Shown here one piece after another: positions 18,900-27,095 of a stretch of 64,000 nucleotides of DNA. Source of the stretch: Thalassospira sp. TSL5-1 (GTDB lineage Bacteria > Pseudomonadota > Alphaproteobacteria > Rhodospirillales > Thalassospiraceae). The stretch is from positions 682,001-746,000 of the forward strand of contig NZ_KV880637.1 of NCBI RefSeq assembly GCF_001907695.1, written 5' to 3'. The position numbers and the translations under genes were made by a program. Position 1 is the first letter of the stretch; the number at the start of each line of letters is the position of its first letter. The notes under the pieces were generated by a model. The model was not told where the DNA came from and ran no database searches. It was given only the letters and a program-made list of their open reading frames with translations.

Positions 18900-19727
18900 A
18901 TGGCAGAAGTTGCGGATGCGTTAAAGGCGGCCAGTGGCGACGGTGATATTGCGGCGCGTTTTGAACATGCCATCGCGGTGGTACGCGAAGCAGGCCGGGT
19001 GGCGATGGATTATTATCGCCGGGTGGATGAACTGGTTATTGAAAGCAAGGCCAACCCGCTCGATGTGGTCAGCATTGCCGATAAAGAGGTTGAAGCTGTT
19101 ATCCGTCGCGAGATTGCGGCGAAGTTTCCCGATGATGGGTATCTCGGCGAGGAAATGGGCATTGATCGCGGCAAGAATGACTGCCTGTGGGTGATTGATC
19201 CGATTGATGGCACCGCGTGCTTTGTCAATAAAATGCCGACCTGGGTGATCTCAGTCGCCCTGATGGTGGGCAATGAGGCCGTGATTGGCCTGATTTACGA
19301 ACCCAATGGCGACGAGCTGTTTGCCGCCTGCATCGGCCAGGGGGCGACGGTCAATGGCAAGCCGATTGCGGCAAGCCAGGTCGATAATGTCAATGCCGGT
19401 GTGATGGGTGTTGGTATGTCGCACCGGGTGGAAAGTGCCGCCCTGGTGCCGTTTATTGCCGACCTTCTGGACCGCGAGGGGATGTTTATTCGCAATGGCT
19501 CCTGCGCACTGATGATGGCCTATGCGGCATCGGGCCGGTTGATTGGCTATTTTGAACCGCATATCAACCCGTGGGACTGCATGGCGGGCATTGTTTTGAT
19601 GCGCGAAGCGGGGGGCTGGTGCAATAGCTTCCTTGCGGCGCCCGACGTGCTGGAAAAGGGGGCACCGATTTTGGTGGCCGGGCCGAAGGTGGCGGACGTG
19701 CTTTCGGAGATGACCGGGGTTAAGTAA
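18900..19727 (+). CDS. Inositol-monophosphatase-family phosphatase
   Basis: A 275-residue Mg-dependent, lithium-sensitive-type phosphatase. The metal-binding motifs are GEEMG (about residue 82), DPIDGT (about 100-105) and the C-terminal WDCMAGIVLMREAGG (about 224). Members act on inositol phosphates, histidinol phosphate, PAP or sugar phosphates. It lies 26 bases after the ATPase gene with an AAGG-type ribosome site and no terminator between, so it is the last gene of the transporter operon. A cytoplasmic phosphatase at the end of a transporter operon suggests that the imported compound is a phosphate ester that is dephosphorylated after uptake. The exact substrate is unknown. Confidence 0.9.
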   Translation: MAEVADALKAASGDGDIAARFEHAIAVVREAGRVAMDYYRRVDELVIESKANPLDVVSIADKEVEAVIRREIAAKFPDDGYLGEEMGIDRGKNDCLWVIDPIDGTACFVNKMPTWVISVALMVGNEAVIGLIYEPNGDELFAACIGQGATVNGKPIAASQVDNVNAGVMGVGMSHRVESAALVPFIADLLDREGMFIRNGSCALMMAYAASGRLIGYFEPHINPWDCMAGIVLMREAGGWCNSFLAAPDVLEKGAPILVAGPKVADVLSEMTGVK

Positions 19728-19752: not shown

Positions 19753-19780
19753 AAAACCGGCATGAAAATTGCCGGTTTTT
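19753..19780 (+). terminator. Terminator of the AfuABC-like operon
   Basis: Stem AAAACCGGCA / TGCCGGTTTT with a 7-base loop and a final T run, 26 bases after the phosphatase stop. Confidence 0.9.
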
Positions 19781-19850
19781 GACGTTCAAAAATGCGTCAG
19801 TTTTGCAAAAATTCGGCTGATTTTGCGATGGAATCGCCGTTTTTTGAACC

Positions 19851-19887
19851 AAAAAAATCCCGCAGCATACTGAATATGCTGCGGGAT
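19851..19887 (-). terminator. Strong leftward terminator downstream of the CRISPR-like unit
   Basis: A perfect 13-base stem (19857-19869 with 19875-19887, loop CTGAA). On the minus strand it is followed by seven T residues (19857-19851). It is placed 11 bases beyond the last repeat base, so it would end a short leftward RNA made from the repeat-spacer unit, and also any read-through from the S24 regulator gene. Confidence 0.92.
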
Positions 19888-19898
19888 TCGGTGTTCCT

Positions 19899-19990
19899 AT
19901 TGTAGCAGGTTCGATTTTAGAGGGTAGCTACAACCGTATTGTCGATTGGAATTTGCGCAGTGCAATTGTAGCAGGTTCGATTTTAGAGGG
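19899..19990 (-). CRISPR. Solitary one-spacer CRISPR unit with type II-C-like repeat
   Basis: A 26-base sequence is repeated exactly at 19899-19924 and 19965-19990, a 66-base period. The first copy extends to a 36-base unit (19899-19934). Read on the minus strand this unit begins GTTGTAGC and ends TGCTACAAT, as type II-C repeats such as that of Neisseria meningitidis do, and has the same 36-base length. The interval 19935-19964 is then exactly 30 bases, the normal II-C spacer length. The second copy lacks the ten bases at its minus-strand 5' end. TGCTACAAT is also an extended -10 promoter element, which in Neisseria drives transcription from inside each repeat. With the leftward terminator this makes a complete small crRNA-like gene. 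No cas gene or tracrRNA candidate is in the window. Confidence 0.72.
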
Positions 19991-19998
19991 GCAGGGTT

Positions 19999-20619
19999 TT
20001 ACTGGCTGCACCATAAAATCCGGGCGATCCAGTCGAGATTTTGGGCTTCGATATAGCGGTCTTCGTAATCCGGGTTGAGGGATTTAAGCTCGATCCCCAT
20101 AGCGCCGCGCCGGACCAGTTCCTTGGCCATCACTTCGCCTTCGCGGGTTTTGACCACGACGCGGTCGCGCGGGCGGATGTTCGATGCCGGGGAGACGATG
20201 ATCAGATCACCATCGCGAAAGACGGGCGACATCGAGTCCCCGGAAATGCGCAGCCCATAGGCGGTGGGGTCGTGCAGGGCGGGGAAGGTGATGTCTTCCC
20301 AGGCGCCGCCCACGGGATAACCTGCATCGTCAAAAAAGCCGCGATTGCCCGCCTGGGCAAAGCCGATGACCGGCACGCGCCCGGCGGCATTGCCATCCAT
20401 TAATTCGGAAAATTCCCGGAAGGTGACATTTGCCGCCGAGAGCACCTTGGCGATGCTTTCAGTCGAGGGCCAGCGCGGTTTGCCCGCAACGGTGTTGCGT
20501 TTGGAGCGGTTGAATGTGGTCGGGTCAAGCTGGGCCAGCCGGGCCAGGCCGGAGGGCGAGAGGCCCTTTTCCTCGGCAATTTTGTCGAGGGCGGCCCAGA
20601 TGAGGTCATGTTTGATCAT
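19999..20619 (-). CDS. S24-family (LexA/CI-like) self-cleaving repressor
   Basis: A 206-residue regulator. The N-terminal helix-turn-helix covers about residues 5-45 (GLSPSGLARLAQLDPTTF). A linker contains the probable self-cleavage bond Ala90-Gly91 (GFAQAGN). The S24 peptidase domain follows, with catalytic Ser129 (SGDSMSP) and Lys166 (VMAKEL). It should repress target promoters and inactivate itself on RecA activation or a similar signal. It sits directly beside the phage late cluster, in opposite orientation, so it is the natural candidate for its repressor. However, close relatives occur as ordinary chromosomal genes in many alphaproteobacteria, so it may be a resident gene. Its stop lies 9 bases from the truncated CRISPR-like repeat. 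Confidence 0.9.
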   Translation of the reverse strand: MIKHDLIWAALDKIAEEKGLSPSGLARLAQLDPTTFNRSKRNTVAGKPRWPSTESIAKVLSAANVTFREFSELMDGNAAGRVPVIGFAQAGNRGFFDDAGYPVGGAWEDITFPALHDPTAYGLRISGDSMSPVFRDGDLIIVSPASNIRPRDRVVVKTREGEVMAKELVRRGAMGIELKSLNPDYEDRYIEAQNLDWIARILWCSQ

Positions 20620-20677
20620 AGTTTCAGTTTAACAGGGTTGAGAAGGCGCAGGACAGGGAATTTATTCCTTTCCCGGC

Positions 20678-20723
20678 AATGAGAACAAAATAGGAAAATA
20701 GTCCTTTACAATGAGAACAAAAA
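20678..20723. promoter_or_regulatory. Paired direct repeats, probable operators of the S24 repressor
   Basis: The 14-base sequence CAATGAGAACAAAA occurs at 20678-20691 and again at 20710-20723, 32 bases apart, close to three helical turns, so a dimer or pair of dimers could bind one face. The site lies 59-104 bases before the repressor start in an AT-rich patch. The gene-free stretch 20620-21042 also has a short inverted repeat GGAATTTATTCC near 20659. Past 20730 I see nothing further up to the ribosome site of the next gene. Confidence 0.6.
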
Positions 20724-21042
20724 GGGATTAAAAGCTGAGTGTCAGCGGGAGATTTGCATCCGGGGGTAAGTGCCCGGCGGTGTAAGATGACGGCCCGTGA
20801 TGTGTGGCTCCTTTTTCATCAATGTTCATGCCCGAGTTTACCAAGACGCGGCACCTGTGGTGCGGTGATGGCCCTGGTGCATTTAAAGGGCGTTTGCAGG
20901 GTAAATCCCTAGTTTCGGTCAATGTGCTTAAGGGTGCGGGAACTTGGCGGCAGGACAGTGGCGGCAAAGGGGCAAGGGGTTGGCAGGGATCGGCCAGGGT
21001 CGGTCCTGCCTGAAGCGGTAAAAATGTGATCAGGAGGGCGAA

Positions 21043-21495
21043 ATGACACAGCAAAGACTTTTCCCCAAACCGTTGGGCTGCGGGGAAGTGACCCTGTTTG
21101 CCAGCGCGGCGCAGGCGTGGTTCTGGTTTGTGCGCTGCCAGGCAGCACGGATAGAAGGGGCGCGGGTTGTGGCCGATGCCGGCGAGGTGACGCGGCCCTG
21201 TGACCCGGATGATGTTTATAATGCGGTGATGCGTCTGTGGCGCGGCGGTGTGATTGGTCAGGCGCATTTGCAGGTGCTGGAATATTACGGACTGGTGGAA
21301 AGATTGCCGGACCGCCGGGTGGTAGCCGAAAGCCACAAAGCCGATTTATGGCAAGAGGCGATGCAGGCCTTGCGTGATGTGCTGGTCAAGCGCGGCATTG
21401 TGGACCCGGAGGGGGCGGATGATGACCCGGAATTTGATGAGTCGGGAGAGTGGAATTACGAGATGCAGGGGGATGTGTCGCCATGCGATTTGTAG
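21043..21495 (+). CDS. Conserved protein of unknown function at the head of the phage cluster
   Basis: A 150-residue soluble protein that I do not recognise by name. It begins with a basic, aromatic stretch (AWFWFVRCQAARIEGAR) and a segment RPCDPDDVYNAVMRLWRGG that could be a helical DNA- or protein-binding region, then an acidic C-terminus (DDDPEFDES). Four Cys residues are present but are not spaced as a zinc finger. An AGGAGGG ribosome site precedes ATG 21043. It is the first rightward gene after the S24 repressor and its operator-like repeats, which is where an early regulator would be expected; this is inference from position only. Confidence 0.7.
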   Translation: MTQQRLFPKPLGCGEVTLFASAAQAWFWFVRCQAARIEGARVVADAGEVTRPCDPDDVYNAVMRLWRGGVIGQAHLQVLEYYGLVERLPDRRVVAESHKADLWQEAMQALRDVLVKRGIVDPEGADDDPEFDESGEWNYEMQGDVSPCDL

Positions 21496-22100
21496 GGAAT
21501 CACGCGCTTTGGGGCGTTCAATCCGGGCAGGACAGGGATGTGGCGGAGCGATGGAAAGCCTGGCAGTTGGCCCGCAACAGGCAGCAAGATGGCGGGCACC
21601 AAGATGAGCTGGGCCAGGACTGGATAATGCCGGAAAATGACGATTATGCCACGGCGGCCGTCGTGGCGGACAAGGTGGCGGCGACGGAGTTGCAGGCGGT
21701 AGACAAATGCGGGCGGCGGGTGCTGATTGTGTTTGCCGATGCGCCGGAAAAATGGCTGTTGCGATGGTTGCCAAAGGCGTTTCGCCATTGTTTTGCCGTG
21801 CTGGAAACGAGCGAGGCCGGATGCTGGATTTACCTGAACCCGGCCAGTCATCGACTGGAGTGCACGTTATGGCGGTTTTCATCGCTGTTTGACCCGGCGG
21901 CGCATTATCGGGCGCGCGGGCATAAGTGCCTGTGGGTGACCGTGCCGTCAGACAATCTGCCGCGCCTTCGGCTGGGGCTGGCAAGCTGTGTGGGGGTGAT
22001 GAAACATCTGCTGGGTATTTCGGCCTGGTGGGTGGTAACACCGCGCGGGCTTCATCGTTATCTTATGAGCAGATCAAAAATTTATCAAAAAAGTTCTTGA
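21483..22100 (+). CDS. Hypothetical protein, phage cluster
   Basis: A protein of about 205 residues, overlapping the previous gene by 13 bases. ATG 21483 is chosen because GGGGGA lies about 9 bases upstream; the frame is open to 21450. The N-terminal third is polar (ERWKAWQLARNRQQDGG). The rest has alternating hydrophobic strands (RRVLIVFADAPEKWLLRWL, CWIYLNPASHRLECTLWRF). There is no recognisable domain. A terminator follows, so this gene and its predecessor form a two-gene unit distinct from the structural operon. Possible roles are regulation or host takeover, but nothing in the sequence proves it. Confidence 0.65.
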   Translation: MRFVGNHALWGVQSGQDRDVAERWKAWQLARNRQQDGGHQDELGQDWIMPENDDYATAAVVADKVAATELQAVDKCGRRVLIVFADAPEKWLLRWLPKAFRHCFAVLETSEAGCWIYLNPASHRLECTLWRFSSLFDPAAHYRARGHKCLWVTVPSDNLPRLRLGLASCVGVMKHLLGISAWWVVTPRGLHRYLMSRSKIYQKSS

Positions 22101-22149
22101 TTTGTTCTTTTTTCTGGGTTATCAAACCTAAATCAACACCAGAAATGCG

Positions 22150-22179
22150 CCCGCTGCCGGAAACGGCGGCGGGTTTTTT
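22150..22179 (+). terminator. Terminator before the structural operon
   Basis: Stem CCCGCTGCCG / CGGCGGCGGG (one G-T pair), tetraloop GAAA, then six T residues. It separates the two-gene early unit from the portal gene. Confidence 0.9.
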
Positions 22180-22184
22180 GTTAT

Positions 22185-22218
22185 GGGCTTGGGTTTGGGC
22201 TTGGGCTTGGGTTCAGGG
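22185..22218 (+). other. Six-run GGG tract, potential G-quadruplex in portal-gene leader
   Basis: Six GGG triplets separated by loops CTT, TTT, CTT, CTT and TTCA, on the coding strand. This meets the standard quadruplex rule (four runs of three G with loops of 1-7) with two runs to spare and resembles telomeric repeats. It lies six bases after a terminator T-run and 58 bases before the portal start, where it could affect transcription restart or translation. Confidence 0.7.
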
Positions 22219-22275
22219 TCGGTCCTTGGCTCTGGCTCTGGGTGAACGGCAAACGGGGAAAAGGGGAGGGTTGTG

Positions 22276-23952
22276 ATGGCCGAACGGGCGGGACAGGATG
22301 AAATAGAGCCTGCGACATTGCGCAAGCGGTTTCGGGCCGCCATGCAACGGCGTGCACATTGGCAGCGCCACTGGCAGGAATGTTATGAATTTGCCCTGCC
22401 CCAGCGCCAGGATAACGGCACCGGGACAGGTGGGGGGAGTGGGGGCAATGGCGGTGCTGGCGGGCAGGGCGGCACGGCCCATATTGGCAAGAAGCAGTTT
22501 GACCGGGTGTTTGATGCCACCGCGCCCGATGCGGTTGAGCAACTGGCGGCCAGTTTGTTAGGCGAGGTAACGCCGCCATCGGGCGGATGGTTTGAAATGG
22601 TGCCGGGTGATGCGGTGGCAGATACAGCACATGCGGATTTGGCCGAGAAACTTTCGCGGGTTGTGCGCATTGTGCAGGGGCATTTTGAACGGTCCAACTT
22701 TGCGGTGGAAATTCATCAGGCTTACCTGGACCTCGTGACAGTCGGCACGGCCTGTTTGCGCCTGGAGGAAGCGGGACATGATGCGCCGTCGAGGTTTCGC
22801 TTTGCTGCTGTGCCGGTGCGTGAACTGGCCTTTGAAGAACGGGTGGATGGCCGGCTGGATGCCGTGTTCCGCCAGCTTTGGCTGGGGATTGATGACATTT
22901 TGGAAAAATGGCCCGACGCCAAAATTCCGGCCCGGCTGCGCGAGCATGACCAAAAGGTTTTGGAAAAATATGCGGTGATCGAGGCGGTGTTGCCGGGCCG
23001 AAACGGGCAGGGTGGTTATGATTACGTGGTGTTTTTTGCCAGTGACCCGGCAGGCATGGGGGGTGGCGGCACGGCTGACGAAGTGATTGCCAGTGGGCGC
23101 TTTGCGGTATCGCCCTATATTGCGTTTCGCTGGTTAAAGGCACCAGGCGAAATTTATGGCCGGTCCCCGGTGATGAAGGCCCTGCCCGATATTAAAACCG
23201 CCAACAAGGTGGTGGAACTGGTGTTGAAAAATGCCTCGATCGCGGTGACGGGCATTTGGCAGGCCGATGATGATGGCATTTTAAACCCGGCCACCGTGCG
23301 GCTGGTACCGGGTAGCATTATTCCCAAGGCGGTGGGGTCGGCGGGGTTAACGCCGTTGGATGCGCCCGGAAGGTTTGATGTGTCCGACGTGGTGCTGGCT
23401 GATTTGCGCGAACGTATTCGCCGCTGTTTGCTAACCGACCGTTTGGGCCAGGTCGATGCCCCGCGCATGACCGCAACCGAGGTTTTGGAACGCGCATCGG
23501 AAAATGCGCGCCTGCTGGCGGCGACTTATAGCCGGTTGCAGGCGGAGCTGATTTTTCCCCTGATGCGGCGCGCCCTGCATGTGCTGGCGCGCAGTGGGGA
23601 GCTTCCCGATATTGCCCTGGATGGCAATGAGGTGTGTTTGCACCACAGCGCCCCCATGGCGCGGATTGGCCAAAAGGCCGAGGCGGGGCAGGTGCTGGAC
23701 TGGCTGGAACGGCTAACCAAACTGGGGCCGGAGGCGACCCATAGCGTTGATATTGATCGCACGGTGCGCTGGCTGGCGGACCGGTTTGGCGTGCCGCCTG
23801 ATTTGTTGCAACCGCGATTGGGGCCACTGGAACTGGCCGGTATGGTGGCGGATTTGGCCGAGGCTGGTGCCGGGCAGGACGCAACTGGAAAAGGCGCAGG
23901 AGGGCCGGAGCCAATGGCCCTGTCGTCTGAAAGGCAGGTGGGTCTTGGTTAA
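22276..23952 (+). CDS. Podovirus portal (head-to-tail connecting) protein
   Basis: A 558-residue protein, the size of T7 gp8-type portals. It resembles the bacteriophage head-to-tail connecting family: an N-terminal helix pair with basic residues (RRAHWQRHWQECYEFALP), the segment FDATAPDAVEQLAASLLGEVTPP, the stretch YGRSPVMKALPDIKTAN, and a helical C-terminus with MTATEVLERASENARLL. Twelve copies should form the ring at one capsid vertex through which DNA passes. A Gly-rich insert lies at about residues 48-68 and may be a flexible loop. ATG 22276 is taken rather than GTG 22273 because of spacing from GGGGAGGG at 22263-22270. It begins the late operon. Confidence 0.92.
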   Translation: MAERAGQDEIEPATLRKRFRAAMQRRAHWQRHWQECYEFALPQRQDNGTGTGGGSGGNGGAGGQGGTAHIGKKQFDRVFDATAPDAVEQLAASLLGEVTPPSGGWFEMVPGDAVADTAHADLAEKLSRVVRIVQGHFERSNFAVEIHQAYLDLVTVGTACLRLEEAGHDAPSRFRFAAVPVRELAFEERVDGRLDAVFRQLWLGIDDILEKWPDAKIPARLREHDQKVLEKYAVIEAVLPGRNGQGGYDYVVFFASDPAGMGGGGTADEVIASGRFAVSPYIAFRWLKAPGEIYGRSPVMKALPDIKTANKVVELVLKNASIAVTGIWQADDDGILNPATVRLVPGSIIPKAVGSAGLTPLDAPGRFDVSDVVLADLRERIRRCLLTDRLGQVDAPRMTATEVLERASENARLLAATYSRLQAELIFPLMRRALHVLARSGELPDIALDGNEVCLHHSAPMARIGQKAEAGQVLDWLERLTKLGPEATHSVDIDRTVRWLADRFGVPPDLLQPRLGPLELAGMVADLAEAGAGQDATGKGAGGPEPMALSSERQVGLG

Positions 23953-23979
23953 AGGAATGAAAAGAGTGGGGGATTTGGG

Positions 23980-24399
23980 GTGAACAGCAATGAAACCGGC
24001 CTGGAAGGCCGTAAGAAAGATGTCAATCCCCAAGATGACAGCCGGATGTACAATGGGGCGGGATGGGCCTGGTTTGAGGGCGTGTCGTTTCCGGGATTGG
24101 GGACTGTCGGGGCTGAATTTGATGTGGAAACGGAAGTGGATGACGCGCCGGATTTGTCGCATTCGGGGATTGTAACACCGGCGGAAGGCAAGGTGTGCTG
24201 CGATGTGGTGTGGCAGCGGGTGCTGGGCGTGGCAGGTGGTGCGGACGGGGCGGAGATTTGTGCGCAATTGCGTGCCATGACGCTGGAACGGGCCCTGGGA
24301 CCGAATGCCGGGATGCAGGCGATTTGGATGCTGGAGGGGCAGCGAGCCCTGGTGTTGCAGATATTGCGCCGGGCGGGTGTAGCCGTGCCGGGCCGATAA
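23980..24399 (+). CDS. Hypothetical phage protein between portal and scaffold
   Basis: A 139-residue acidic protein of unknown function starting at GTG 23980, with GGGGGA about 6 bases upstream. The middle has an acidic cluster (VETEVDDAPDLS) and the C-terminus looks helical (LEGQRALVLQILRRAGVAV). In many podoviruses a small protein occupies this slot between portal and scaffold genes. It does not contain an enzyme motif that I recognise. Confidence 0.7.
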   Translation: MNSNETGLEGRKKDVNPQDDSRMYNGAGWAWFEGVSFPGLGTVGAEFDVETEVDDAPDLSHSGIVTPAEGKVCCDVVWQRVLGVAGGADGAEICAQLRAMTLERALGPNAGMQAIWMLEGQRALVLQILRRAGVAVPGR

Positions 24400-24442
24400 A
24401 GACGTGCAGGGTGTGACAGGGCGCGTGAGAGGGAGTGTGTTG

Positions 24443-25177
24443 ATGACAAAAACAGGCGATACCGGGCCACAGATAACGGATGCAGCAGATGGCCTGCCTG
24501 CCGAAGGAGACGCAGGGCCGGTTGATATGCCCGGTGGCGTGAGCCCGGATGTGCGGGTAACGGCGGGGCAGGACGCCGAAATGACCGATCGCCCGCCGAC
24601 ATGGGTCGTGCCGGGGGAGGATGGCAGTGCGGAAGACTGGCAGGCCTTTTACCGCGCGCTGGGGGTGCCGGAAAGTGCGGAAGAGTATGTGATTGAGGGG
24701 GCGGATGCGTTGGGGGGTGTTAACGCGCAGGTCAATGCCCGCCTGCATGAGGCGGGCTTTACGCCCCAGCAGGCACAACTGGTTTATGATTTGGCCGGGG
24801 AAATTTTAACGCCGATGGCAGCGGAGCTGGAAAGCGGGGCGAAAGCGGCCCTGATGCAGGCTAAACTTGCCGCCGAATTTGGCGGCGAGGCCCAATGGGC
24901 GCAATTGGCGCCGCGCCTGGCAAGCTGGGGGCAAAAGAATTTGCCCGATGCCTATGAGGCGATGGCGCAAAGCCCCGACGGGGTGCGCGCCCTGTATAAG
25001 TTAATGCACGAGGCCGGCGAACCGGGGCTGGCAGCGACGGGAAGCGGGAATGCCCGCGAAACGCCACAGGTGGAAATAGACCGCCTGATGAATGACCCGC
25101 GTTACTGGCGGGACAGGAACCCGGTGATTGTGGCGCAGGTGCAGGCAGCCTTTGACCGCCTGCACCGCAATGAGTGA
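24443..25177 (+). CDS. Capsid assembly scaffolding protein
   Basis: A 244-residue acidic protein placed between portal and capsid genes, the classic scaffold position (T7 gp9). The N-terminal third is disordered and acidic, the centre is helical (AQVNARLHEAGFTPQQAQL, EILTPMAAELESGAKAAL), and the tail ends with IDRLMNDPRYWRDRNP followed by a charged helix. The signature DPxYW near the C-terminus is often found in podoviral scaffolds. ATG 24443 with GAGGGAG upstream is preferred over GTG 24404. It would guide capsid assembly and leave before packaging. Confidence 0.82.
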   Translation: MTKTGDTGPQITDAADGLPAEGDAGPVDMPGGVSPDVRVTAGQDAEMTDRPPTWVVPGEDGSAEDWQAFYRALGVPESAEEYVIEGADALGGVNAQVNARLHEAGFTPQQAQLVYDLAGEILTPMAAELESGAKAALMQAKLAAEFGGEAQWAQLAPRLASWGQKNLPDAYEAMAQSPDGVRALYKLMHEAGEPGLAATGSGNARETPQVEIDRLMNDPRYWRDRNPVIVAQVQAAFDRLHRNE

Positions 25178-25301
25178 GCCTGCATGGGTCAGATGCAGGC
25201 CCGGCCGTGATGGAGACGGCCTGAAAACCAGTTGTTGGCACGCCCTGTTTAAGCCCCCTGTTTAAAAAACAGGGGTTACGACGGGGTTAAAGGCAAAGGT
25301 C

Positions 25302-26063
25302 TTAATTTGCCGGGTCAACCTGATAGCGCCCGTCGGATTTGTGCACTTCGGGCGGGATGCGGGTGCGTTCAAAGGCGGCATAAGCATCATACAGGCCCGG
25401 GGCGGGGGTATTGCCGGTGGCATCTTCGGTCAGGGTCTGGCTGTCATCCATTGCGGCCGGTTTTTCAAAAATATGCACCGGAACCGATTGCTGACCGGCG
25501 CGTAAGGCCGCATCGACGAGAAGATAGATCTGTTCGATGTCCTCGTTTTTAAGGGCAATACCGGGGCCGTCGGCGCAATTGCCATGCAGGCTGTAGGTGA
25601 TGGTTGCCCTGGTAGGCGAGGGGGCATCCTCATCGGGCAGCGGGGTAAGGGACAGTTCGACATTTTTCGGGCTGTTGGGGGCCAGATTATCGCGCGAGAT
25701 GGTGTAAACGCCCGGTGGCGGTGTCTGGAAGGTGGCATTGCCGGTTTCGGCATCCTGGCAGAAGGTGGCATCCTGGATTTCGCTGTAGCGATGATCACCG
25801 CGTAACCAGACTTCGATTTCATGATCGGCGGTGAAGGCGCGCAGATAAACCGGGGCGCCAACGGCAATGTTGGCATCCTTCAGGCGTTTTTCCATATCGG
25901 GCAGAACGCGGCTGCGGATGCGGTCGGCGCCAAAGCCGGTTAAGGCGGAAACACGCGCCGTAAAGGCCGAGACATAACCGGGAATAGGGGTGTAGGGCAG
26001 GGCGAAATAGCCTGCCGCGCCCAAAGCGACAACAGTGAAAATTGCGTAAGTACGTGCGCGCAC
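25302..26063 (-). CDS. YafK-like L,D-transpeptidase homologue lacking the catalytic cysteine
   Basis: A 253-residue protein encoded against the direction of all the surrounding phage genes. An N-terminal signal anchor (residues 5-24) sends it to the periplasm. The following region matches the YafK group of YkuD-fold proteins: PVYLRAFTADHEIEVWL (71-87), PPPGVYTISRDNLAPNSP (115-132) and HGNCADGPGIALKNEDIEQI (160-179), then VHIFEKP. In active YafK-type enzymes the motif after HG ends in IGC; here the position of the nucleophilic Cys is Gly168, so it should not be catalytic. It looks like a passenger gene (moron). It might bind peptidoglycan or compete with a host enzyme, but that is speculation. 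A GC-rich promoter-poor gap flanks both sides. Confidence 0.8.
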   Translation of the reverse strand: MRARTYAIFTVVALGAAGYFALPYTPIPGYVSAFTARVSALTGFGADRIRSRVLPDMEKRLKDANIAVGAPVYLRAFTADHEIEVWLRGDHRYSEIQDATFCQDAETGNATFQTPPPGVYTISRDNLAPNSPKNVELSLTPLPDEDAPSPTRATITYSLHGNCADGPGIALKNEDIEQIYLLVDAALRAGQQSVPVHIFEKPAAMDDSQTLTEDATGNTPAPGLYDAYAAFERTRIPPEVHKSDGRYQVDPAN

Positions 26064-26279
26064 CTGGAAGGCTCCGACGGGTTGACGTTGTTATAAATCG
26101 GGGTCGTCCGGCGACCATGAAACAGCCGATTTTTCTGGCCTGCTTGCCAGAATCCGGAATTTGAAATCAAGCATCAAAGCATGACCAGAAAATGACACTT
26201 AACGCAGGAATTAAGGCGGTTGTTGCCTTGTTTCCGGCGCGGGCTGGCGTTTGGGCGTTTTTAGCAAAAAGGGGATGAG

Positions 26280-27095
26280 ATGAGTATTTCGATTGATAAA
26301 AGCTTCATCGAGCATTTTCAGGCCGATGTGCACCAGGCCTATCAGCGCATGGGATCGAAACTGCGCAATACGGTGCGGGTGAAAAATGGGGTGAAAGGGG
26401 CGACAACCACGTTTCAAAGGGTGGGCAAAGGGGTTGCCACCACCAAGGCCCGGCATGGTTATGTGCCGGTGATGAATGTGAACCATGACCCGGTGCGCTG
26501 TGATTTGCAGGATTATTACGCTGGCGACTGGGTGGATGCGCTAGACGAGCTTAAGATCAACCATGATGAAAAAATGGTGCTGGCCAATGCCGGGGCCTAT
26601 GCGCTGGGCCGCAAGACCGACGAGCTGATCATCAAAGCAATGGAAACCGCAGCAACCAAAATCAGCCATGACGACAGGGGACTGGTTTTGGAAAAGATTT
26701 TACGGGCGTTTGAGCAGTTGGGGACAGATGATGTACCTGATGACGGCCAGCGTTATGCCATTGTTGGCTGGAAACAATGGTCGGAGCTTTTGACGATAAG
26801 GGAATTTGCCTCGTCGGATTATGTGGGCAATGAGGATTTGCCCTGGAAGGGCACACAGGCCAAACGCTGGCTGGGCACCCTTTGGATGCCGCATTCGGGC
26901 CTGCCGGAGGTGGACGGGGGACGGGCCTGTTTCTGGTATCACCGCACGGCGATTGGTCATGGCGTGGGGGCGGATGTGCAGACCGACATTACCTGGCATG
27001 GCGACCGGGCGGCGCATTTTATCAGCAATTCCATGAGCCAGGGCGCCACCCTGATTGACGGGGCCGGGGTGGTGTGCCTGCTGGCAAAGGAATAG
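26280..27095 (+). CDS. Major capsid protein
   Basis: A 271-residue protein in the capsid slot after the scaffold. It has the phage-capsid pattern of a family common in alphaproteobacterial podovirus-like elements: an N-terminal helix (FIEHFQADVHQAYQRMGSKL), KGATTTFQRVGKG, the segment HDPVRCDLQDYYAGDWVD, and a long central helical region leading to ADVQTDITWHGDRAAHFI near the end. At 271 residues it is short for a HK97-fold capsid (T7 gp10 is about 345), but within the range for this group. GGGGATGAG precedes ATG 26280. A terminator follows after 33 bases, as is common behind highly expressed capsid genes. Confidence 0.9.
   Translation: MSISIDKSFIEHFQADVHQAYQRMGSKLRNTVRVKNGVKGATTTFQRVGKGVATTKARHGYVPVMNVNHDPVRCDLQDYYAGDWVDALDELKINHDEKMVLANAGAYALGRKTDELIIKAMETAATKISHDDRGLVLEKILRAFEQLGTDDVPDDGQRYAIVGWKQWSELLTIREFASSDYVGNEDLPWKGTQAKRWLGTLWMPHSGLPEVDGGRACFWYHRTAIGHGVGADVQTDITWHGDRAAHFISNSMSQGATLIDGAGVVCLLAKE

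Follow-up and report, generated by a model that had tools for sequence, protein, structure and literature searches.

Why should a CRISPR unit with a single spacer and its own terminator stand beside a phage-type repressor gene, and whose unit is it? The unit lies in the window analysed here, a stretch of 64,000 nucleotides from the genome of Thalassospira sp. TSL5-1 (G000), a draft assembly of 4.97 Mb in 25 contigs. A preliminary description of this DNA had read it as a self-contained gene for one guide RNA, and had offered two origins for it: an orphan or remnant array, or an accessory guide belonging to the element next to it.

Anatomy of a single-spacer array

An exact-repeat scan gives two identical copies of 26 nt, at 19899–19924 and 19965–19990, offset by 66 nt. 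The first of these is part of a full unit of 36 nt (19899–19934), and the stretch enclosed between unit and copy (19935–19964) is exactly 30 nt long, as the preliminary description had it. Read on the minus strand, a 26-nt partial repeat (19990–19965) is followed by the 30-nt spacer (19964–19935), the 36-nt repeat (19934–19899), 10 bases and a terminator (19888–19850). This is also the order described earlier, namely promoter-like repeat end, spacer, repeat and terminator, the promoter-like part being read from the letters of the DNA. The features are as follows.

19965–19990, minus strand: first repeat, truncated at its 5' end, with 26 of 36 nt kept (exact-repeat scan and comparison of arrays)
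19935–19964, minus strand: the single 30-nt spacer, from the sequence; a putative transcript start would lie near 19958
19899–19934, minus strand: complete CRISPR repeat of 36 nt, the same in sequence as repeats next to cas9 in the relative G014 (36-mer search)
19850–19888, minus strand: intrinsic terminator, a 14-bp hairpin and T-run (sequence and folding)
19755–19898, minus strand: 3' flank, similar to the flanks that arrays have at other sites and probably the leader, or spacer-insertion end (a role suggested by repeat decay at the opposite end and by the literature)
19999–20619, minus strand: S24/HTH repressor gene, conserved in the genus and outside the array, convergent with a phosphatase-family gene at 18900–19727 (from context)

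The full repeat of the array, on the minus strand, is GTTGTAGCTACCCTCTAAAATCGAACCTGCTACAAT. The terminator hairpin has perfect arms of 14 bp (19856–19869 and 19875–19888), and folding gives the hairpin and then a T-run; the perfect terminator claimed earlier is therefore present, but it follows the repeat at a distance of 10 bases, not 11. Within 200 nt, exact direct repeats reach 26 nt in the real window, compared with at most 15 nt in 30 first-order shuffles of the window. Rfam models run over the window gave no match at gathering score.

That this is a real CRISPR unit is borne out by the rest of the genome. At up to three mismatches the 36-mer occurs in G000 at nine places (eight exact, one with one change), and the reversed 36-mer, used as a control, occurs at none. 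The further copies that the preliminary description had proposed to look for therefore exist, and they make up three arrays: site A, in the window (1 spacer); site B, C1:492135–492301 (3 spacers); and site C, C2:1386269–1386569 (5 spacers). Together these have the make-up of CRISPR arrays, with nine full repeats and nine spacers of 29–31 nt, all distinct, and the repeats have hardly changed, with 1 difference in 324 nt. An integration duplication as the source of the 26-nt copies is rejected, since the copies belong to a family of repeats that the genome has at three places.

Site B has a peculiarity of its own (L037 10069–10620, minus strand). Ahead of its 3-spacer array lies a zero-spacer unit consisting of a partial repeat and a decayed leader, and between the two are a Phd-family antitoxin gene and, by eye and with no Pfam match, a broken doc-like piece. 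The zero-spacer unit with its Phd antitoxin and doc-like piece is not seen at site B of G014.

The repeat and its cas genes in related genomes

Where, then, does the repeat come from? Among 29 Thalassospira genomes the 36-mer is present, at up to three mismatches, in four, and the 22-nt end of the repeat, at up to two mismatches, is found in the same four. G014 has the 36-mer at 63 places within three mismatches (60 exact, and one of the 63 being the tracr anti-repeat), G019 has it at 26 places, each with 2 changes, and G010 at one place. Across the named genomes, the 20-nt end of the repeat matched 10 stretches, eight of them in Thalassospira profundimaris S25-3-2 and Thalassospira sp. MCCC 1A01428. 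The remaining two matches of this 20-mer (L095 and L097) are single ones, in Anaerolineales and Oscillatoriales metagenome-assembled genomes.

A Cas9 family search was positive in five of the 29 genus genomes (G001, G014, G019, G023 and G028). Within this set the repeat is confined to G014 and G019; the other three (L009, L010 and L011) contain no copy of the 36-mer at up to three mismatches. In both G014 and G019 longer arrays with the window repeat adjoin the cas9 locus, so that a lack of cas9 in this lineage, named earlier as a finding that would count against the CRISPR reading, is not borne out.

The locus in G014 is organised in the order array, tracr region, cas9 (1187 aa), cas1, cas2, array. 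HMM searches place its Cas9 (TIGR01865), Cas1 of the NMENI type (TIGR03639) and Cas2 (TIGR01573) above the NCBIfam cut-offs, and no listed frame of 90 aa or more in the locus (L040 7000–16500) was recognised by eye as csn2 or cas4. By our own classification, cas9-cas1-cas2 in G014 is a type II-C gene set, and the repeat, earlier called II-C-style from its form, indeed goes with a cas9-cas1-cas2 system found in the genus. A candidate tracrRNA in G014 begins with a 36-nt anti-repeat, 3 changes away from the repeat, and continues into a G+C-rich hairpin and T-run; the duplex of anti-repeat and repeat, along its length, has a computed energy of −51.1 kcal/mol. The cas region of G019 is 79% identical in DNA to that of G014, and its Cas9 match (L013) contains one in-frame TAG, because of which the G019 system may be damaged or misassembled.

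Two further observations concern the arrays of G014. ParD/ParE toxin-antitoxin genes lie directly behind the outer end of the CRISPR array at the cas locus (L040 15554–16295); a ParDE pair inside the type II-C locus of F. columnare is mentioned in PMC8092290. Duplicate spacers, counted by script, make up 9 of 14, 9 of 29 and 5 of 11 in three arrays (L040 7158–8051, L040 13716–15633 and L043 9716–10411, respectively), the totals of 14 and 11 each including one stretch upstream of the first repeat. This duplication points to internal duplication or recombination within the arrays.

How does the window array compare with known systems? It resembles the type II-C arrays of Neisseria and Flavobacterium, as these are described in PMC8092290, PMC10309648, PMC12638026 and PMC12814883, in its 36-nt repeat, 30-nt spacers and promoter-like repeat ends. 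It differs from them in that no cas locus was found in G000 and in the terminator that follows the last repeat in all 11 readable arrays. One survey describes a group of small II-C arrays far from cas genes, with its own caution that they may be misclassified (PMC12814883). Orphan type II arrays that share their repeats with a cas-bearing array are already known, and the window array adds another case; among the publications listed for Thalassospira and CRISPR, judged by title and the start of the abstract, no study of these arrays was found. It is an ordinary kind of relic, of tidy architecture.

Probable loss of the cas genes and the place of the array

A profile search of the 25-contig draft found no Cas9 (TIGR01865) in G000, and no Cas1 (PF01867) was found there either, the Cas1 model being positive, as a control, in 9 of 14 named genomes. 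When the 12.5-kb DNA of the G014 cas locus was used as a query, with 40 of 102 first-look candidates scored, the matches in G000 were confined, apart from the last 7 bases of cas2, to the two genes that flank the locus and to the arrays and their leaders; the tracr tail and the rest of the cas genes gave none. At the cas site of G000 ∼0.6 kb separates the flanking genes, and this interval holds a different open frame of 215 aa, which by eye looks like an acetyltransferase. G010, with its single spacer at site A, gave no Cas9 match.

The proposal that this is an orphan or remnant array thus holds as far as the searches reach, with no Cas9, Cas1 or tracr match in G000, although family models were applied only for Cas9 and Cas1, and a plasmid-borne cas9 could be missed because the assembly is a draft of 25 contigs. 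The description as a self-contained gene, in contrast, was too strong. With Cas9 and tracrRNA absent as far as searched, the unit can only be a precursor.

Was the cas locus lost from this lineage, or never there? Judged by the capsid protein, G014 is the closest relative of G000 (92% identity; the next is 82%), and the flanks of the cas locus in the more distant G019 are those seen in G014. The simplest reading of this pattern would be that the G000 line lost the locus. As to its age, the distal leaders at sites B and C differ between G000 and G014 at 31 of 163 aligned bases. If half of this divergence is put on the G000 branch, rough arithmetic gives ∼27 changes expected in unconstrained sequence for the 288 bases of full repeat at sites B and C, where 1 is seen, the distal leader being only a proxy for neutral sequence. 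It follows that either the loss is recent, falling by a rough Poisson upper bound in about the final sixth of the branch, or the repeats are still constrained. The near absence of mutation fits recent loss, and continuing use as well.

Continuing use would imply a cas9 that comes and goes, on a plasmid or as a polymorphism of the population, with the orphan arrays serving as maintained memory. The low count of changes speaks for it, as does a precedent: CRISPR2 of Enterococcus, the orphan array described in PMC5491264, is in such a state and is reactivated by cas9. In E. faecalis this type II-A array has repeats identical to those of a cas-bearing array of the group, is kept without cas genes and has a degenerate terminal repeat, all as here, and it worked again once the matching cas9 was supplied in the authors' experiment (PMC5491264). 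The likeness stops short of the details, since CRISPR2 has a leader promoter (PMC5491264), whereas the window array is II-C-like, with promoter-like repeat ends and a leader that is probably 3'. No cas9 is present in the G000 assembly, however, recent loss accounts for the low count equally well, and the leader is merely a stand-in for neutral sequence; we therefore regard an array still in use as unlikely, though by no means negligible.

What of the neighbouring phage-like genes? All three arrays of G000 lie between convergent genes: site A between the phosphatase-family gene and the S24/HTH repressor, site B between a penicillin-binding protein and a transporter-like gene (the latter label not coming from a library match), and site C between a CHAD protein and a photolyase. 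A census of 29 loci per site, each reaching ∼1.5 kb beyond its match, was made for the repeat end with up to 4 of 20 bases allowed to differ; it was found at site A in 4/29 (G000, G010, G014 and G019), and at sites B and C in 2/29 each, G000 and G014 both times. The number of spacers at site A is 1 in G000, 1 in G010, at least 7 in G014 (6 different; the contig ends there) and 10 in G019, the spacers differing from genome to genome. G025 has the phosphatase-repressor pair of site A and no array; tested as a candidate empty site, its intergenic sequence bears no resemblance by eye. The neighbours of site B in G003, G010, G011 and G019 likewise have different sequence by eye and are not clean empty sites, and site C of G019 is without an array.

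The repressor region, in contrast to the repeat, is matched in 29/29 genus genomes, and the capsid/head protein is also found in 29/29, with one match each at 77% identity or more. Because repressor and capsid are present throughout and the repeat in 4/29, and because the other two arrays lie elsewhere, the array is chromosomal, and its presence tracks the CRISPR system instead of the phage-like genes. The earlier suggestion of an accessory guide carried by a neighbouring phage element finds no support, on the same grounds, the other two arrays standing beside ordinary chromosomal genes. The phage-like cluster extends over 19999–27095 and includes the repressor (19999–20619), a head-tail connector (22273–23952) and the capsid gene (26280–27095). 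The cluster is fixed and possibly domesticated, phage-like or resembling a gene-transfer agent, and these genes, fixed across the genus genomes searched, may merit more attention than the array.

We conclude, with a probability of about 0.88, that the array is an orphan of type II-C-like character on the bacterium's own chromosome, one of three short arrays left after cas9, cas1, cas2 and the tracrRNA were lost or replaced. This reading follows from the identity of the repeat with that of cas-bearing relatives, the shared sites and the lack of any Cas9, Cas1 or tracr match in the assembly.

A single spacer with its own terminator, adjoining an S24 repressor and phage head genes, could also be a mini-array of a phage or prophage that borrows the host's Cas9 against competing phages, and viral mini-arrays of one or two spacers, with a host-type repeat and no cas genes, are indeed known (PMC11656645). 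The window array shares these traits with them, but it is not on a virus and occupies a chromosomal site common to the longer arrays of relatives. The distribution of repressor and capsid (29/29) against that of the repeat (4/29), the same gene pair without an array in G025, the placing of the other two arrays in penicillin-binding protein/transporter-like and CHAD/photolyase gaps and the lack of any exact match of the 22-nt repeat end in viral contigs make this very improbable. Carriage as phage cargo or by a mobile prophage is thus largely refuted, the phage-like neighbours being fixed in 29/29 and the array not. A short repeat-bearing unit near phage-like genes likewise recalls the RNA anti-CRISPRs (Racrs), repeat mimics that tie up host Cas proteins; Racr candidates have been described for nearly every CRISPR type (PMC10651486). 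As defined there, however, Racrs are solitary repeat units, and the finder used counts a full repeat as a mini-array when a similar, partial copy lies no more than 100 bp away (PMC10651486); the unit described here, with its 26-nt partial repeat 30 nt from the full one, is then a mini-array. With longer arrays at the same site in G014 and G019, and no Cas9 found in the host as a target of inhibition, a Racr is more improbable still, and it has been set aside as failing the solitary-repeat definition.

The single unit at a shared position might, alternatively, encode a regulatory crRNA-like RNA directed at a chromosomal target, comparable to the II-C-associated scaRNA for which a gene-regulatory role in Neisseria meningitidis is described (PMC13431127). 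The spacers of G000, G010, G014 and G019 differ at this same site, however, no second match of the spacer occurs in its own genome at up to three mismatches, and no Cas9 was found, all of which leaves this the least probable of the readings considered. The spacer was also searched for elsewhere in the 29 genus genomes, at up to three mismatches, again with no match. A phage or plasmid target, for which the preliminary description had proposed a search, did not appear: the best E values were 0.6 against phages and 0.1 against plasmids, neither convincing, and no viral contig contained an exact 20-mer of the spacer. Two other spacers of G000 and one of G014, searched as exact 20- or 21-mers, gave no viral contigs each, so that the searches in outside collections cover 3 of the 9 spacers of G000. 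When 75 spacer candidates were compared with 16 sequences at up to five mismatches, four hits fell outside an array context, and all four were array ends or flanks.

First repeats, a probable leader and a possible working of the array

If the window array is an orphan of a chromosomal type II-C-like system, how would it have worked? The first repeats of the arrays offer a clue. In 13 such repeats, mismatches occupy 100 of 143 cells at positions 1–11, compared with 14 of 325 at positions 12–36. In seven of the 13, position 10 or 11 is the last to be mismatched; four others also have mismatches at positions 13–17 or beyond, and two, those of site C and of cas array 1 in G014, are whole or nearly whole. 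The 13 are not independent, since rows at one site share descent; site B of G000 by itself supplies two of them, and two were positioned by eye. The part that survives includes the last 9 nt of the truncated repeat (TGCTACAAT), which resemble an extended −10 promoter element. Transcription of II-C arrays from promoters carried in the repeats is described in PMC12638026, PMC12814883, PMC8092290 and PMC10309648. This, together with the restriction of decay mostly to positions 1–11, suggests that the first repeat may be kept mainly for its promoter end. An alternative for a degenerate end is the anchor role proposed for terminal repeats in PMC5491264.

The other end of the arrays is equally regular. 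In 11/11 readable arrays from four genomes, a similar hairpin with a T-run stands behind the last repeat; 12 arrays were aligned, site A of G014 being excluded because it runs off its contig. The zero-spacer unit at site B of G000, which stands outside this count, has a decayed hairpin and no T-run. The terminator side is probably the leader. Spacer gain at the 3' end is reported for II-C arrays (PMC12638026, PMC12814883), and in the II-C array of F. columnare transcription runs towards the leader (PMC8092290). PMC12638026 cautions that spacers may be acquired at more than one end in II-C arrays, which makes the assignment less certain.

These features can be combined into a possible working. 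Each repeat would end in its own promoter, so that the truncated first repeat would start a transcript inside the spacer; this transcript would run through the rest of the spacer and the full repeat and end at the terminator. The product would be one crRNA precursor of ∼109 nt, which a matching Cas9 and tracrRNA could use if they were present. New spacers would formerly have been inserted at the terminator, or leader, end.

A more far-reaching and distinctly speculative extension, which we think rather unlikely, is that the type II-C memory of this clade is split over compact cassettes, perhaps spreading as units, which are kept free of Cas9 until a cas9 locus returns. Each cassette would comprise a promoter-only truncated repeat, spacers, a full repeat and a leader with built-in terminator, set in a convergent intergenic gap. 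This idea draws on the seven of 13 first repeats that share the same left boundary to within a base. For the biology of type II-C arrays, these genomes provide a natural set, in which one site has 0, 1, at least 7 or 10 spacers in related species, with and without cas9.
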